Shown here: in pieces, positions 6,259-22,232 of the stretch
Numbering within the stretch: position 1 is the first letter of the stretch
Layout: each line of letters begins with the position of its first letter
IMG/VR virus record: IMGVR_UViG_3300008450_000515
Location: 1-22,240 of that record
Source: a virus
Strand: one strand, 5' to 3'
Length of the DNA: 22,240 nt
Notes under the pieces: model-generated
The model's input: only the letters and a program-made list of their open reading frames with translations
Database searches by the model: none
What the model was told of the DNA's origin: nothing
Translations under genes and position numbers: made by a program

Positions 6259-7320
6259 TTAGTCGGGCGGTTGCATCAATTTACGGTTGGACAGCAGACG
6301 AGCGTCGTCTGGCGCCAATTTTAGGGCTTCGTCTAAATGATGGATAGCCTCGGCTTTCAGGCCAAGATGCCAGGCCGCAATGCTGGCTAGGTCGTGGGGT
6401 TTTTCGCCCCAGACGCTAGGGTCGGCTGTGTACACCAGCGCTTTGTCTTTGATCTGGAGCGCCGACTTAGCCGCCGCGTAGGACTCGGCCCACATTCCGT
6501 AGCGGTAGGTCAGCATGGACAGCTCAACCCAAGGCTCGCGCGTGCCTGGTGCCTCGGCAACGGCCAGGCGATACCATTTGAGCGCCTCCCAACCCCGGCC
6601 CAGCTCGTCGTGCGCCTTGCCCAATAGGCGCATGGCGTAGCAGCGCTCGTTGGCCCAGTTCGCCTCCGGCATCGCCAAATATTTGGACAAAGCGACTATT
6701 GCCTCGTCCCACCGGCCATAAAAAGTTAACTCGCGAGCGTGGTAGAACGCATTGCGTGGGCAAAACGGATCCTCTTTAACCGCCAGCTCTAGCAGCGGCA
6801 TATATTGACCGCGGGATTTGTCCGGGTCCGGGTGATGGCTCACCAACAGCATATCGGTCTGCGCGTAGACCTCGGTGATTCGGCCGTCCGGGCGTGGGTA
6901 TTCATGGACCGGGTGATGCCAATGGTAGCCGCGCCGGTGATGGATCTTTTCGTAATAGAAGCTGATGCCACAGCCCCAATCGAATTTGTAGCGCAGCCTG
7001 GTGGTGTCCTCCTGCCATACGCGCTCAATTTCCTGCCGCCAGCCAGGCTCTAGCACCTCGTCCAAGTCTAGCGAGATACACACATCGTAGTCGCCAGGAA
7101 TGAGCGCGAGCGCCGTGTCGCGCGCCTTGTCAAAGCGCCACGGTGAAACAAAAATGTTGTGGACCGTAGCGCCACATTCAGCCGCCAGGCTGGCCGTGTT
7201 GTCGGTCGACCCGGTGTCGGCAATTAGCACCAGATCGGCCTCGGCGGCAGACTCGCAGAACCGTTTTACAAATGCTTCTTCGTTCTTGCTGATGGCGTAG
7301 ACCGCGATTTTTAGTGTCAT
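6259..7320 (-). CDS. family 2 glycosyltransferase with TPR-like C-terminus
   Basis: A 353-residue protein with a GT-A-type glycosyltransferase domain: AVYAISKNEE (7-15), IADTGSTDNT (33-42) for nucleotide-sugar binding, and SLDLDEVLEP (83-92), whose D-x-D is the metal-binding motif. The C-terminal half (about 185-350) is made of helical pairs resembling tetratricopeptide repeats (AFYHARELTFYGRWDEA; EALKLAPDDARLLSNR). It likely moves a sugar from a nucleotide donor to an acceptor. In this place, between fibre and lysis genes, the acceptor could be a fibre protein or the host cell surface; both are inferences. The start is the ATG at 7320 with only a weak ribosome-binding site. Confidence 0.85.
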   Translation of the reverse strand: MTLKIAVYAISKNEEAFVKRFCESAAEADLVLIADTGSTDNTASLAAECGATVHNIFVSPWRFDKARDTALALIPGDYDVCISLDLDEVLEPGWRQEIERVWQEDTTRLRYKFDWGCGISFYYEKIHHRRGYHWHHPVHEYPRPDGRITEVYAQTDMLLVSHHPDPDKSRGQYMPLLELAVKEDPFCPRNAFYHARELTFYGRWDEAIVALSKYLAMPEANWANERCYAMRLLGKAHDELGRGWEALKWYRLAVAEAPGTREPWVELSMLTYRYGMWAESYAAAKSALQIKDKALVYTADPSVWGEKPHDLASIAAWHLGLKAEAIHHLDEALKLAPDDARLLSNRKLMQPPD

Positions 7321-9621: not shown

Positions 9622-11777
<2,156 letters not shown>

Positions 11778-17527: not shown

Positions 17528-19894
17528 TTAGCGGCTCACAGGTAGAGAGCGTTGCGCCGACTGATTAGCCGCCCACACCGCTTGTTTGTTTTTAGACAAA
17601 AACGCAACGCCCGACTGCGTATCAATTGCGCTCATGTTCTGAATGATTGGCCCGTTGTAGTTAATCACCTGGCCACCCATTGCGCCGGCCAGCGCGTGAT
17701 TGGGAATCACCGTTCCCGAATTTCTAGGCACCACCAGCTCAGGGCCGCGCTCGCCGACGAGGTACGGTTGACCAGATGAAATGTCGCCGCCATCAGCTCG
17801 GGCGCTTAGACCTAAACCCGACGACGGCGCACCGTAGCTTAACGAGTATTGAGACACGCCAGGCCCAGACCCGAAAAGTTTGATTCCAGACCCACCAACA
17901 ATTGCTGAGAACAGCGCCGAGGCCTGCGCCTTGAGTTGGATTGCAATAATGTCCTGAATGATTGATCGCGCTAGATCACCAAATTTCAATTTGCCCGTTC
18001 TAACAAACCTATCAATCGCCGACTCAATGTTGTTGGCAAGAGACGAGAACATAGACTCGGCAACCCTTGCGGCGTTAGTGGCGTTATCCATGTAAGAACT
18101 GAATGCGTCATCCCAACCATATTTAAACGAGCGTTGCGCGTCTTTTTGCTGTTCAGTCAGACGAATCATTTGTATACCAGACTCGTAAATTTCTTGCGTC
18201 CGGCGTTGGATGATTTCCTCGTCAACACCAAGCCGGCGAGATGTTCTTTGAAATTCGGCGATGCGAACCTCTAGGTCGTACATGGCCATCAATTCTTCAC
18301 GTCGTCGCTGACTAAACGACAGAGTTTTCATTTCATATTCAACGCGCTCATTTGCCAATTTGTTTTGGCGCGTCTGCTCGTCAATTGATTGACCGAATGC
18401 GAATTGTTGACCAGCTTTTTCTGTTGCGTTGGCAAGACCGGCGGCGGCTGATTCGCCGGCTCCGCGTTTTTCCGACCGCATGAAATCAGAAGAATTTTCA
18501 ATCTGAGACAAAAGCGCCTGATATTCCAGACGCTGTTGCATGATTTTTTCTTTGCCCTCTTGGAGCAACTTCACGCGCTTGGCTTCAGCGTCGGCAGCAT
18601 CGTTAATTTGTTTTTTGACCTGCGCCGTTGCATCGCGGTTTTGAATAAGGTCAACTTGGCGTTTGTTCTCAATCTTTGCGAGCTGTTCTTGCGTCGTCAG
18701 TTGATCGGACAGATATTCATAAAGCGATTTGCCTAAGACGGTTTCATCCATCTGAAGAGCCAGCCGCTTTGCATCAATGTCGGCCAGCGTCCGAGACAAT
18801 ACAATTTCTTGTTTGTATAGCTCCAGCTTTTTTTGTTGCTGTTGCGCTTCTTTGGATGATTTAATTTCGCGCTGATTGGTGGCTTCCCATTCGGCAACTT
18901 GGTCCGCAATAGAAGGCACCGCCATGCCTTGACGACCACCAGCTCCAGCGTTGGAGCCACCGCCCATGACTCGCTTTTCGGCAGCATCAAGTTCGCGGCG
19001 CGCTTTTTCGGCGTCCGCAACCATCTTTCTGTGAATTTGAGAAACCTTGTCAAAGTCCAGAGCTATTGCTGCCGCAATCTGGTCTTTCATTCCGCTAATT
19101 TCTGTCCTTACTGCTTTGAACACATAGGCTAGGTTCATTGCCAGAACAGAAACGGTTTCATAAACCGTTTTAAAAACTTCGCCAAAAACTTTGGTTTCAA
19201 GACCCAAGCTGGTGATGTAGTCAACAGTAATTTTTAAACGCGGCCCAAGTTCAACGGCAATAATTTGCAACGCATCCCGCCCTGTTTGAGCAAACAGGTC
19301 GTACATTTCCGCCGCGTCTTTCAGCGCCTGGGCTTGCTCTTGCGTTGCGCTGTTTGTTGCGTTTAGCCCGTTGGCAAGTGCGGTAAAGTCAACGCCCTTA
19401 GCCGCCCTTCCAAAAACTTCCATCGCCAACGCATTGCGCGTCAACGGATCGGCAATCTGGCCGATGTTCTGTGCGGTCTTGGCGAACAGTTGCTCTGTAT
19501 TAAGCGTCGCCAAATCTTTAAGAGAAACGCTGGCTTTGGCAAATGCCTTTTGCGCTTCGTCTGATCCAGATGCGGCCTTGTCTACAAAGCTGGTAAACGA
19601 GGAAAGAAACTTGCCGGCGTTTTCTGCTTTGCCGCCAGAGTTGGCGAGAGCGTTAGACAGCTTGATAACCGAATCGACCGCCACATCATTAGCGGCGGCG
19701 ACATCGACAATTTCGTCGGCGTACTTCAACGCGGCGGCAGATGCGGCCGTGAGCGCGGCAACAGCAACACCACCGTATCTTTGCGCGCTGTTGGCAAACT
19801 CGGCCATTTTGCTGCTGGCCGTGTCCAACCCTTTCACGAACTCGGCGCTGTTTAGACCCAGGACAACGCCGAGCCGTGAAATGATGTTAGCCAT
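17528..19894 (-). CDS. tail tape measure protein
   Basis: A 788-residue tape measure that sets tail length and is expelled during DNA entry. It has an N-terminal LGVVLGLNSAEFVKGLDTASSKM segment, an alanine-rich hydrophobic stretch (GVAVAALTAASAAALKY, about 41-57), long charged coiled-coil regions in the middle (about 280-590), and a C-terminal GERGPELVVPRNSGTVIPNH motif found in many tape measures. At about 0.15 nm per residue the tail would be roughly 118 nm (inference). It starts with TAATG coupling to the chaperone extension. Parts are more AT-rich than the rest of the window. Confidence 0.9.
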   Translation of the reverse strand: MANIISRLGVVLGLNSAEFVKGLDTASSKMAEFANSAQRYGGVAVAALTAASAAALKYADEIVDVAAANDVAVDSVIKLSNALANSGGKAENAGKFLSSFTSFVDKAASGSDEAQKAFAKASVSLKDLATLNTEQLFAKTAQNIGQIADPLTRNALAMEVFGRAAKGVDFTALANGLNATNSATQEQAQALKDAAEMYDLFAQTGRDALQIIAVELGPRLKITVDYITSLGLETKVFGEVFKTVYETVSVLAMNLAYVFKAVRTEISGMKDQIAAAIALDFDKVSQIHRKMVADAEKARRELDAAEKRVMGGGSNAGAGGRQGMAVPSIADQVAEWEATNQREIKSSKEAQQQQKKLELYKQEIVLSRTLADIDAKRLALQMDETVLGKSLYEYLSDQLTTQEQLAKIENKRQVDLIQNRDATAQVKKQINDAADAEAKRVKLLQEGKEKIMQQRLEYQALLSQIENSSDFMRSEKRGAGESAAAGLANATEKAGQQFAFGQSIDEQTRQNKLANERVEYEMKTLSFSQRRREELMAMYDLEVRIAEFQRTSRRLGVDEEIIQRRTQEIYESGIQMIRLTEQQKDAQRSFKYGWDDAFSSYMDNATNAARVAESMFSSLANNIESAIDRFVRTGKLKFGDLARSIIQDIIAIQLKAQASALFSAIVGGSGIKLFGSGPGVSQYSLSYGAPSSGLGLSARADGGDISSGQPYLVGERGPELVVPRNSGTVIPNHALAGAMGGQVINYNGPIIQNMSAIDTQSGVAFLSKNKQAVWAANQSAQRSLPVSR

Positions 19895-20247
19895 TATTCA
19901 AACCTCTTTTTGTCGAACCCTGGTGCGCTTGCCATGAATGCCAGCAGGTTTTGATTGGTCGCCTCTTCCTGCAAGTGTTTTGGCAACGGCGGATAGATGT
20001 AATCGTAAGCCGAACCGATAATTGTTTGGAGCTTGTACGGCGCAGAATTTGCGGGTCGAATGTAGTTGAACATCCCGTTCACCATCGTGCCCAATAGCGT
20101 GATAAGCGACTGATTGCCGACCACGCCATCGGCGTACATGGTTTGAATGTTCGCCATCGTCACATCGTCAATATCGGCAATGCTGTCGTGGGTGTGGCCG
20201 TTAAAGATCATTGCCGATTCAACTTGCAACCTTAACGACCCAATCAG
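19894..20247 (-). CDS. tail assembly chaperone, -1 frameshift extension (GT-like)
   Basis: This frame holds 117 residues that are added to the upstream chaperone by a -1 frameshift at 20253-20247, giving a fusion of about 277 residues. It begins with CTG right after the slippery site; the frame is open between that site and the first internal ATG (20211), and no good ribosome-binding site precedes that ATG. The protein (MIFNGHTHDSIADIDDVTMANIQTMYADG ...) matches the role of lambda T, the C-terminal domain of gpGT that recruits the tape measure and tail tube proteins. It is followed by the tape measure gene through a TAATG overlap. A stand-alone product from 20211 is the alternative. Confidence 0.8.
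   Translation of the reverse strand: MIGSLRLQVESAMIFNGHTHDSIADIDDVTMANIQTMYADGVVGNQSLITLLGTMVNGMFNYIRPANSAPYKLQTIIGSAYDYIYPPLPKHLQEEATNQNLLAFMASAPGFDKKRFE
20173..20218 (-). promoter_or_regulatory. perfect 10-bp stem downstream of the slippery site
   Basis: On the mRNA strand, ATCGGCAATG (20218-20209) and CATTGCCGAT (20182-20173) form a perfect 10-bp stem around a 26-base loop. It begins 28 bases after the slippery heptamer. This spacing is longer than the usual 5-9 bases for a frameshift stimulator, so its role is open; it may instead regulate the internal ATG at 20211, which it includes. Confidence 0.5.
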
Positions 20248-20726
20248 TTTTTTCGAGCTTCCCTGTACGTCGGGGAAATAACCTCACCAATTTTTTCGCA
20301 GATGGCGAGCTGCACAGACAACGGCCACTCAACTTCGATTTCTTCGTAGGTCAGATCGGCCAGGCTTTCGCCTTCAATCTCCGGCACCAATAGCTTAATG
20401 AATTCGGTGATGCGCGTTTCGGTGATGCATTTGGCCTTTGCGGCCTCACGCATAGAACGCCCTTCGACCAGCACATCGTCGTCGGTAAACTTAAAAGACT
20501 CTGCGCCTTCGTCCTTAAACTGCATCAGCGGCTCGACCATGCTCTGATAGATGCTGTCGATTCGATCCGAGCTTGGCTCAGAAATGCGCCGGTAGATTTC
20601 GTCGGATTCGGAAACGAGAGGCACGCGAACCTTAAAGGTGTGGCCCCCGAGTTCAAATTTGCGGATAAGCAGCTCTTTACGTTTTGCCTCATAGGCAGAA
20701 CCGAGTGCAGAACCTAGTTTGGTCAT
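20244..20726 (-). CDS. tail assembly chaperone (G-like)
   Basis: A 160-residue protein encoded before the tape-measure gene, in the place of lambda gpG. It begins MTKLGSALGSAYEAKRKELL, continues with a strand pair (KFELGGHTFKVRVP, about 23-36) and then helices, ending in EKIGEVISPTYREARKN. This mix is typical of tail assembly chaperones, which coat the tape measure during tail assembly and are absent from the virion. The gene ends at a TGA that directly follows the slippery heptamer. The start overlaps the previous gene by 4 bases (ATGA). Confidence 0.75.
   Translation of the reverse strand: MTKLGSALGSAYEAKRKELLIRKFELGGHTFKVRVPLVSESDEIYRRISEPSSDRIDSIYQSMVEPLMQFKDEGAESFKFTDDDVLVEGRSMREAAKAKCITETRITEFIKLLVPEIEGESLADLTYEEIEVEWPLSVQLAICEKIGEVISPTYREARKN
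20247..20253 (-). promoter_or_regulatory. programmed -1 frameshift site A-AAA-AAC
   Basis: The minus strand reads CGA AAA AAC TGA in the chaperone frame, so the heptamer A-AAA-AAC of the X-XXY-YYZ type sits directly before the stop codon. A -1 slip reads CTG ATT GGG next and enters the open T-like frame that runs to 19894. Site, frame relation and gene order all fit the lambda G/GT system. Confidence 0.88.
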
Positions 20727-21277
20727 CTTGTATTTTTCCTGTATTTATTGAGTTGTTGTGCCAGCGCCTCTCCCAAACGAGAAACGACAGCTTGTGCATT
20801 CGACTCCATTGCGGGTCGCAGGTACGGTTGCGCCGAAATTTTCGACGTCCCAAATTCTTGCGCGATTGCGCGCGCGTCCGATTTGATACCGGTAAACCCG
20901 GCAACCTGCTCGGCGGTAGCGCCCATTTTTGCCAATCGTTTTTTTGCTTTTGCCAGACCTCGGTCGCTGCTCATCTGGGCAAGTTTTTGCCCGCTGGCCG
21001 TTGTGACCATTGCAATCACCGAATCGCTTTGGCCAATATACTTTGACCGCCTATCTCGTTTGGTTGGCCGTCTGGCCTCAACTTGCAAAGACAGCCGCAG
21101 GCCACCGCTATCAATTGGCGCGTTTTGCTGCGCTGCGGTCAGCACCGGCATGATGGCTTGCCTAGCCGCTGGCACCAGAACTCGGCTCTGCGCTTTCCTG
21201 TCGCCAATTTCGTCAGCCAGTTGATCGAATGCCCGCGTCACATCCCCAAGACCTTCAATCTTAAAGGTGACGGACAT
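20723..21277 (-). CDS. HK97-gp10-like tail completion protein
   Basis: A 184-residue basic protein with the typical start of the HK97 gp10 family: MSVTFKIEGLGDVTRAFDQL, then VLVPAARQAIMPVL and AAQQNAPIDSGGLRLSL (about 32-65), and the end motif TSKISAQPYLRPAMESN (about 144-160). These proteins act at the head-tail joint or tail terminus. In many siphophages the gene comes before the tail tube gene; here it comes after it, between two small genes and the chaperone. A 5-base gap separates it from the previous gene. Confidence 0.75.
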   Translation of the reverse strand: MSVTFKIEGLGDVTRAFDQLADEIGDRKAQSRVLVPAARQAIMPVLTAAQQNAPIDSGGLRLSLQVEARRPTKRDRRSKYIGQSDSVIAMVTTASGQKLAQMSSDRGLAKAKKRLAKMGATAEQVAGFTGIKSDARAIAQEFGTSKISAQPYLRPAMESNAQAVVSRLGEALAQQLNKYRKNTR

Positions 21278-21282
21278 AGCAA

Positions 21283-21504
21283 TCAGCCCTTTAGCATCTT
21301 GTTATAGATGGCCGCATTCAGCCCTATGACGTAATCAATGATTTCGTTGGGCGTCATCTTATCGCCGTGGGCGATGGCCATTCGGTAGGCCAGATCAATA
21401 CCGGCCACCTTCTGCTGCTGGAAACTAAACCAGTTTTTCTGGCCCGAGTTAGCCTGGCCCCATAGGAACCCCAGCAGGTCATTCGTGTTTTGTATTGTGG
21501 TCAT
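21283..21504 (-). CDS. small hypothetical protein in the tail cluster
   Basis: A 73-residue protein, mainly helical, with tryptophans near the N-terminus (NDLLGFLWGQANSGQKNWFSF) and a helical C-terminus (NEIIDYVIGLNAAIYNKML). No membrane segment or enzyme motif. It lies between a small acidic gene and the gp10-like gene with gaps of 3 and 5 bases, so it is clearly part of the operon. In several phages short helical proteins follow the tail tube gene and act in chaperone or tail completion, but similarity cannot be judged here. Function unknown. Confidence 0.6.
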   Translation of the reverse strand: MTTIQNTNDLLGFLWGQANSGQKNWFSFQQQKVAGIDLAYRMAIAHGDKMTPNEIIDYVIGLNAAIYNKMLKG

Positions 21505-21507
21505 CTT

Positions 21508-21714
21508 TTATTCTTCAGGGTCTGGGTCCGGCGCTGGGGCCGCAGCCTGCGGTTTGACGAGGTAGCGCATAGCCACCGCCTCGGCGCTGTCGGCGTCGGC
21601 ATCGGCAATTGCTTCTGCCAGCTCGGCTTGGTCGACTTCCATGCCGCGAGCTGCCAGAGCGAGATCGCCCTGGACAGCCATGAGCAATTGCACAGCCTCA
21701 AAGACGCCGGACAT
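21508..21714 (-). CDS. small acidic hypothetical protein after the tail tube gene
   Basis: A 68-residue protein with a helical, alanine-rich, strongly acidic body (LALAARGMEVDQAELAEAIA, DADADSAEAVAMRYL) and a low-complexity end (AAAPAPDPDPEE). The ATG at 21714 forms a TAATG overlap with the tail tube gene. A competing frame at 21501-21701 has arginine/serine-rich shadow composition and is rejected. Function is unknown; its place right after the tail tube gene hints at a chaperone-like or tail assembly role. Confidence 0.6.
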   Translation of the reverse strand: MSGVFEAVQLLMAVQGDLALAARGMEVDQAELAEAIADADADSAEAVAMRYLVKPQAAAPAPDPDPEE

Positions 21715-22232
21715 TAGCTGTTGCTCCAGCCGTACTGGTTACCGCGCGGGTGAACCGTGAAAACGCATTTGGCTTCAGCGCCAGGCTGGGCATCGATTTG
21801 GAACTGGCTAACGCGGCCGTTAAACGCATAAGCGACGGTGTTGGTGCCATCGTATGCCGACACGACAAACGTGCGGTCTACGGTCCCGTTATAGGCGTCT
21901 GAACGGATTTGAAGCAGGGCCGTGTCGCTAGGGTTCCAAGCTGCGGTAATCGTCATTGAGGTAGGCGCGGATTGCGTCGGGATTTTGTCCGACTGACGCG
22001 AGCCGGCCACCGAGAAATTGGCGACCGCATCGTCCTGGCCAAAGGCAGGCACCGCCTCGACGGGAACCGCGACACCAGCCGCGCCAGTACCGCCGGCCGT
22101 GGTGCCGACGATGGTGGCGACCTGCGCCGACCAGACCGACAGGTTGGCGGTTGTCAGGGGCGTAGGGGTAGCTGCGGATTGCATCCACAGCGCGGCGCTA
22201 AAACCGGGAAGAACTTTATTGGGGAGAGCCAT
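21714..22232 (-). CDS. major tail (tube) protein
   Basis: A 172-residue protein, beta-rich, starting MALPNKVLPGFSAALWMQ, then glycine/alanine-rich segments, a conserved-looking stretch AGSRQSDKIPTQSAPTSMTITAAW (given here in parts: GSRQSDKIPTQ about 77-87 and SMTITAAW about 92-99), then VSAYDGTNTVAYAFNGRVSQFQID and a final VHPRGNQYGWSNS. The pattern (short beta-barrel protein with an R-x-x-D near the middle) fits phage tail tube proteins. Place at the head of the shaft genes, before the chaperone and tape measure, agrees. GGTG before the ATG is a weak ribosome-binding site. Its upstream neighbours lie outside the window. Confidence 0.65.
   Translation of the reverse strand: MALPNKVLPGFSAALWMQSAATPTPLTTANLSVWSAQVATIVGTTAGGTGAAGVAVPVEAVPAFGQDDAVANFSVAGSRQSDKIPTQSAPTSMTITAAWNPSDTALLQIRSDAYNGTVDRTFVVSAYDGTNTVAYAFNGRVSQFQIDAQPGAEAKCVFTVHPRGNQYGWSNS

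Follow-up and report, generated by a model that had tools for sequence, protein, structure and literature searches.

A predicted programmed −1 frameshift with candidate stimulators in the tail assembly chaperone gene of a large uncultured phage family

Few recoding events in nature are commoner than frameshifts in tail assembly chaperone genes, which according to a major review seem to be without stimulators in certain tailed phages. In the G/GT genes of phage lambda, a −1 shift near the end of the chaperone gene, at the X_XXY_YYZ heptamer G_GGA_AAG, produces the long G-T form, and the tape measure gene comes next. The lambda heptamer lies 15 nt from the stop, with no Shine-Dalgarno (SD)-like motif upstream and no local hairpin (codon-shuffle z of about +0.9). 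In phage HK97, gp14 of the gp13/gp14 pair is annotated as a −1 frameshift product, and the shift in HK97-like genes was measured at ~6-7% (PMC3711429); a simple X_XXY_YYZ scan found no slip site in HK97 itself. For enterobacterial prophages, hairpins were judged likely to be important in one cluster only out of five (PMC4066793). In the dnaX gene of some bacteria, the zero-frame stop directly follows the shift site (PMC5009743).

The locus described here lies on the minus strand of a 22,240-nt stretch of viral DNA (IMG/VR record IMGVR_UViG_3300008450_000515, positions 1 to 22,240), referred to below as the window. It is like lambda G/GT in the predicted direction of the shift, its place near the end of the chaperone gene, the tape measure gene that follows, the type of heptamer and the long form predicted. 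Judged from the sequences of the window and its relatives, a programmed −1 ribosomal frameshift very probably yields a short and a long form of the tail assembly chaperone in this phage. The first-pass annotation had proposed a shift of the lambda G/GT type, a reading upheld by the preserved function of the heptamer, the conservation of the −1 frame from its first codon, the gene order and a moderate fold match to the HK97 chaperone. Its account of the signal was correct for the slip site and overlooked an SD-like motif upstream and a hairpin downstream, so the site is not of the bare lambda type.

The chaperone junction and its gene neighbourhood

The zero-frame, G-like chaperone (20244..20726, minus strand) is an open reading frame of 160 aa immediately ahead of the tape measure gene. 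Read directly, its last codons at 20264-20244 are AGG GAA GCT CGA AAA AAC TGA. The slippery heptamer A_AAA_AAC (20247..20253, minus strand) stands in slip phase, its first A being codon position 3, and is followed with 0 nt between by the zero-frame stop TGA (20244..20246, minus strand). After a slip, the −1 frame would continue CTG ATT GGG TCG until TAA at 19896-19894, adding a T-like extension of 117 aa (open frame 19894..20247, minus strand) whose stop shares bases with the tape measure ATG (TAATG). The predicted products are thus a short form of 160 aa and a fusion of 160+117 = 277 aa. The heptamer flush with the stop in CGA AAA AAC TGA (20255-20244, minus strand), the −1 frame open as far as 19894 and a fusion of about 277 residues against 160 had all been claimed earlier, and the sequence, the reading frames and the computed lengths agree with that account.

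The surrounding genes, all on the minus strand, follow the order major tail protein (21714..22232; phrog_158, 2e-6), HK97 gp10-like tail completion or neck protein (20723..21277; phrog_5, 5e-14), chaperone, extension and tape measure protein (17528..19894; 788 aa; Pfam PF09718, 6e-15; phrog_1716, 7e-17), which fits a tail chaperone. Between the major tail protein and the neck protein are two small ORFs of 68 and 73 aa (21283-21714, minus strand) with no clear family match. A long collagen-like GPTGPTG repeat protein of 558 aa is encoded downstream of the tail genes (9622-11298, minus strand), and a glycosyltransferase-like protein with repeats, recognized by eye, lies beside the tail fibre genes (6259-7320, minus strand).

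Pfam and PHROGs gave no convincing family match for either the chaperone or the extension; little sequence is shared among such chaperone genes of different phages (PMC5009743). The AF2 model of the chaperone (pLDDT 88) found its best solved match in the HK97 tail assembly chaperone 2OB9, aligning 102 of 107 residues at 12% identity with an rmsd of 3.7 and a Z of 6.0, which stands above unrelated rows at ~3.6 but falls below 8; Foldseek alone gave an E of 1.6. The modelled resemblance to the HK97 chaperone fold is moderate but pointed. The predicted fold of the extension had no informative match (low pTM of 0.46).

Conservation of the slip site, SD-like motif and hairpin

The mere number of heptamers in the window was not taken as evidence, since AAAAAAC occurs 3 times compared with 5.5 expected from shuffles; of the three copies, only that at 20253-20247 has the phase needed for slippage in its gene. 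The significance of the heptamer comes instead from its conservation at homologous junctions. A search of viral contigs returned 31 close loci and profile searches hundreds more, from which 190 loci with 106 distinct junctions were counted. The comparison of homologous chaperone genes proposed in the first-pass annotation placed a canonical heptamer at exactly the same position, flush with the stop, in 105 of these 106 junctions (GGGAAAC in 97, AAAAAAC in 7, GGGAAAT in 1), the single exception being Methylophilaceae phage P19250A. The stop is always TAA or TGA at canonical junctions, and TAA, TGA or TAG across all branches. Six near-copies aside, relatives with a canonical site have ~45-68% of the chaperone in common with the window, and conservation of the heptamer is therefore not a matter of mere recent descent.

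In a tree of 94 sequences, calculated with the frameshift signal's own columns left out, the window and loci L123 and L124 carry AAAAAAC at separate places inside the GGGAAAC group. This pattern indicates that the function of the heptamer is preserved as its letters change, with GGG replaced by AAA, three bases together, in two separate places. Synonymous constraint was evaluated for 69 thinned sequences over 159 chaperone codon columns, of which the three most conserved are the heptamer GGA, the heptamer AAC and the AAG/AGG of the SD-like motif. One point against a shift is that, in E. coli, A_AAA_AAC slips far less readily than A_AAA_AAG (PMC5009743); the weakness of this site there fits a need for stimulators.

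The SD-like motif of the window, AGGGA (20260..20264, minus strand; AAGGA in most relatives), ends 6 nt before the heptamer and is marked by both codon choice and predicted anti-SD pairing. It begins with a Lys or Arg codon five codons before the heptamer AAC. Among the 69 thinned sequences, Lys at this position is written AAG in 44 cases and AAA in one, that of P19250A, and Arg is AGG in 24/24; elsewhere in the chaperone gene AAA is the commoner Lys codon and AGG accounts for a few per cent of Arg codons. Part of a further branch, represented by L035, has Glu here, written GAG. Lys, Arg and Glu share only the bases of AAGGA, AGGGA and GAGGA, a Shine-Dalgarno-like motif. One of these three forms stands upstream of the slip site in 83/94 rows. 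Over a 180-nt profile, predicted pairing with the 16S tail is strongest at the motif (mean of −5.25 kcal/mol for the 94 sequences; −5.1 kcal/mol for the window). The window's AGGGA is a weaker SD form than AAGGA, and PMC4066793 does not include AGGGA among the SDs for which stimulation has been proven by experiment.

The 5' arm of the hairpin (20230..20240, minus strand) begins 6 nt past the heptamer and forms an 11-bp stem with the 3' arm (20196..20206, minus strand). Folding energy over 45 nt from +6 after the heptamer averages −18.4, as against −6.6 over the region, and the first paired base is +6 in 68/69 sequences. Codon-preserving shuffles gave a mean z of −3.75, with 52/69 sequences below all 100 of their shuffles. 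The z of the window alone is only about −1.6 to −1.9, moderately unusual, so the hairpin is convincing there through the comparative evidence. In 87 sequences, from which the L035 branch with its different, weaker hairpin was left out, standard pairs fill 99.2% of stem cells compared with 33-63% for slid partners. At +13/+43 the stem pairs GC in 52 sequences and AT in 35, having changed at least 9 times on the tree with 0 GU intermediates, and the pair +10/+46 is GC in 49 and AT in 35, with eleven changes. By corrected mutual information these two pairs rank 1 and 2 among 3063 column pairs, and +16/+40 ranks 5. The covarying stem positions are third-codon positions on both arms, and protein constraint is therefore no explanation for them. 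In the window's own lineage, a C to G change at +7 accompanies a G to C change at +49 (GGC to GGG with GGG to GGC), exchanging synonymous Gly codons and keeping the pair. An Rfam search with the hairpin gave no match. Ranks three and four of the mutual information fall outside the hairpin, in columns +23/+24 and +97 from the chaperone stop (20223/20222 and 20149 in the window, minus strand), and may reflect a lineage effect or a longer-range pairing.

Searches of annotated phages found only P19250A, whether the query was the window protein, a central relative or a distant one. The P19250A locus (KX815270.1, 9904-10715; L033) is annotated as two unrelated hypothetical proteins, P19250A_0013 and P19250A_0014, the second called from an internal ATG (+35) inside the hairpin; the sequence predicts that together they are one frameshifted chaperone. 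P19250A and its relatives end in TCA AAG followed by TAG or TAA, two sequences having TTTAAAG. The branch is without the canonical heptamer and keeps the hairpin, the 6-nt spacing, the flush stop and the homologous −1 frame. Its outer members also keep AAGGA, and the P19250A core has AAAGA and no SD. Homologues without a slippery heptamer, which the first-pass annotation had counted against the shift, thus exist in the literal sense; in an otherwise kept layout they carry A_AAG, and the frameshift reading is not refuted. Of the tetramers that shift by −1 in E. coli, A_AAG (A_AA.G) performs best (PMC4066793). In the L035 branch, AAAAAAC abuts the stop, with GAGGA or AAGGA upstream. The same phage tail module is present in L034 and L035, whose contigs are recorded as MAGs of Crocinitomicaceae and Candidatus Nitrosotalea and are likely phage contigs that were wrongly binned.

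Proposed mechanism and rival explanations

For most ribosomes, reading CGA AAA AAC TGA would end in release of the 160-residue G-like protein. The minority may be delayed at the heptamer by AGGGA pairing behind and the 11-bp hairpin ahead, whereupon both tRNAs would slip from A_AAA_AAC to AAA_AAA, the stop would be skipped and the 277-residue G-T-like fusion would be made. When AAC occupies the A site, the stem would start 13 nt from the P-site codon's first base, close to where the mRNA enters the ribosome. The SD-like motif would be positioned behind the P site. The event is thus likely a tandem −1 slippage before the stop is decoded, stimulated from both sides; its efficiency and the roles of the two proteins are likewise predictions. 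By analogy with lambda (PMC5009743), the short form may coat the tape measure protein and the extension of the fusion may recruit the major tail protein. The ratio of short form to fusion would then set correct tail assembly, as in lambda.

The flush stop raises a variant of this mechanism, in which the stop would itself be a stimulator: slippage would occur mostly while the P site contains AAC or AAG and a stop in the A site awaits release factor, so that the G:GT ratio would respond to release-factor supply. The stop is flush in every branch, compared with an average heptamer-to-stop distance elsewhere of 26-36 nt (PMC10885494), and in the A_AAG branch TCA cannot re-pair in the −1 frame whereas AAG can, as AAA. 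However, the canonical branch keeps the whole X_XXY_YYZ, which fits tandem slippage before the stop, as does the 6-nt spacer; the flush stop could simply spare C-terminal residues, and the use of TAA, TGA and TAG favours no single release factor. Slippage mainly at a waiting stop is for these reasons improbable. The related proposal that the stop is a working part, with the hairpin, the SD-like motif and the waiting stop together setting the chaperone ratio through termination-coupled −1 slippage, is rather unlikely. Were it correct, the slip motif could be freely swapped (GGGAAAC, AAAAAAC or single-tRNA A_AAG) around a fixed hairpin and stop.

The remaining explanations do without a programmed ribosomal shift or without a role for the hairpin in it. 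That the extension is a separate gene, started at TTG 20229 or ATG 20211 by coupling to chaperone termination, with the heptamer incidental, is suggested by the small gap, by TAAGG standing before the TTG in the window and by the P19250A annotation, in which the extension is a CDS of its own that starts at the +35 ATG. These are the first start candidates in the window, and neither has a well-spaced ribosome-binding site or is kept in all relatives: the ATG at +35, which falls within the hairpin, is missing in L030, L031 and L035, and a TTG at +11 is missing in the window and others. The extension protein is conserved in all branches from the first −1 codon (LIGSL[KR]xQ), upstream of both candidates, which substantiates the earlier statement that it has no good start signal. 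A separate gene would also offer no reason for the SD-like codons that precede the stop, for the flush position of that stop or for the swaps of the heptamer, and is highly improbable. Transcriptional slippage on the six consecutive As at 20248-20253, yielding the fusion from a mixed mRNA population, would require a run that the relatives, mostly GGGAAAC, and the sister branch with TCAAAG do not have, neither motif being a long run for polymerase slippage; an SD-like motif with a spaced hairpin indicates the ribosome, and this explanation is exceedingly improbable. A strong hairpin between two gene segments might instead be a terminator or processing site unrelated to frameshifting. It is very unlikely to be either, as no U run follows it, its start is fixed at +6 in 68/69 sequences, Rfam does not recognize it and the very branch whose slip motif changed, that of P19250A, has kept it.

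Comparison with known systems

A ribosomal −1 frameshift in a tail chaperone gene is a kind of event known from lambda G/GT; within the open-access literature covered, and allowing that an earlier description may exist, the set of candidate stimulators, the flush stop and the slip-motif swaps differ from lambda. A large uncultured phage family, consisting of hundreds of environmental contigs and one named isolate, has a dnaX-like set of candidate stimulators, base-pair covariation at synonymous sites and natural slip-motif swaps. The family offers a ready comparative system for asking how these parts, the slip motif, the SD, the hairpin and the stop, are balanced against one another to hold a G:GT ratio, and it calls for a correction to the annotation of its sole named isolate, P19250A, in which both halves are listed as unrelated hypothetical proteins.

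Set against lambda, the window family is distinguished by the flush stop, the SD-like motif, the covarying hairpin and the swapped slip motifs. The P19250A branch, with TCA AAG and a stop, is like A_AAG tetramer sites such as that of IS1222 (G_CGA_AAG; PMC5009743) in the same predicted re-pairing of a single tRNA and in the downstream hairpin. It differs from them in its tail chaperone gene, its flush stop and the interchange with canonical heptamers within one family. E. coli dnaX has an SD-like motif, an A-rich heptamer and a stem-loop ~5-6 nt downstream in the same order. Its motif is AGGGAG, its spacing 10 nt and its heptamer AAAAAAG, whereas the window family has 6 nt and AAAAAAC or GGGAAAC in an unrelated gene, and the shift gives a shorter product in E. 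coli dnaX and would give a longer one here. The upstream SD-like motif and the stem-loop, which starts within a distance of about 5-8 nt downstream, are thus present, and A_AAA_AAG is absent, its place being taken by AAAAAAC, GGGAAAC or TCAAAG. The site is therefore not classed as a dnaX-type site proper, and would work like that of dnaX without being homologous to it.
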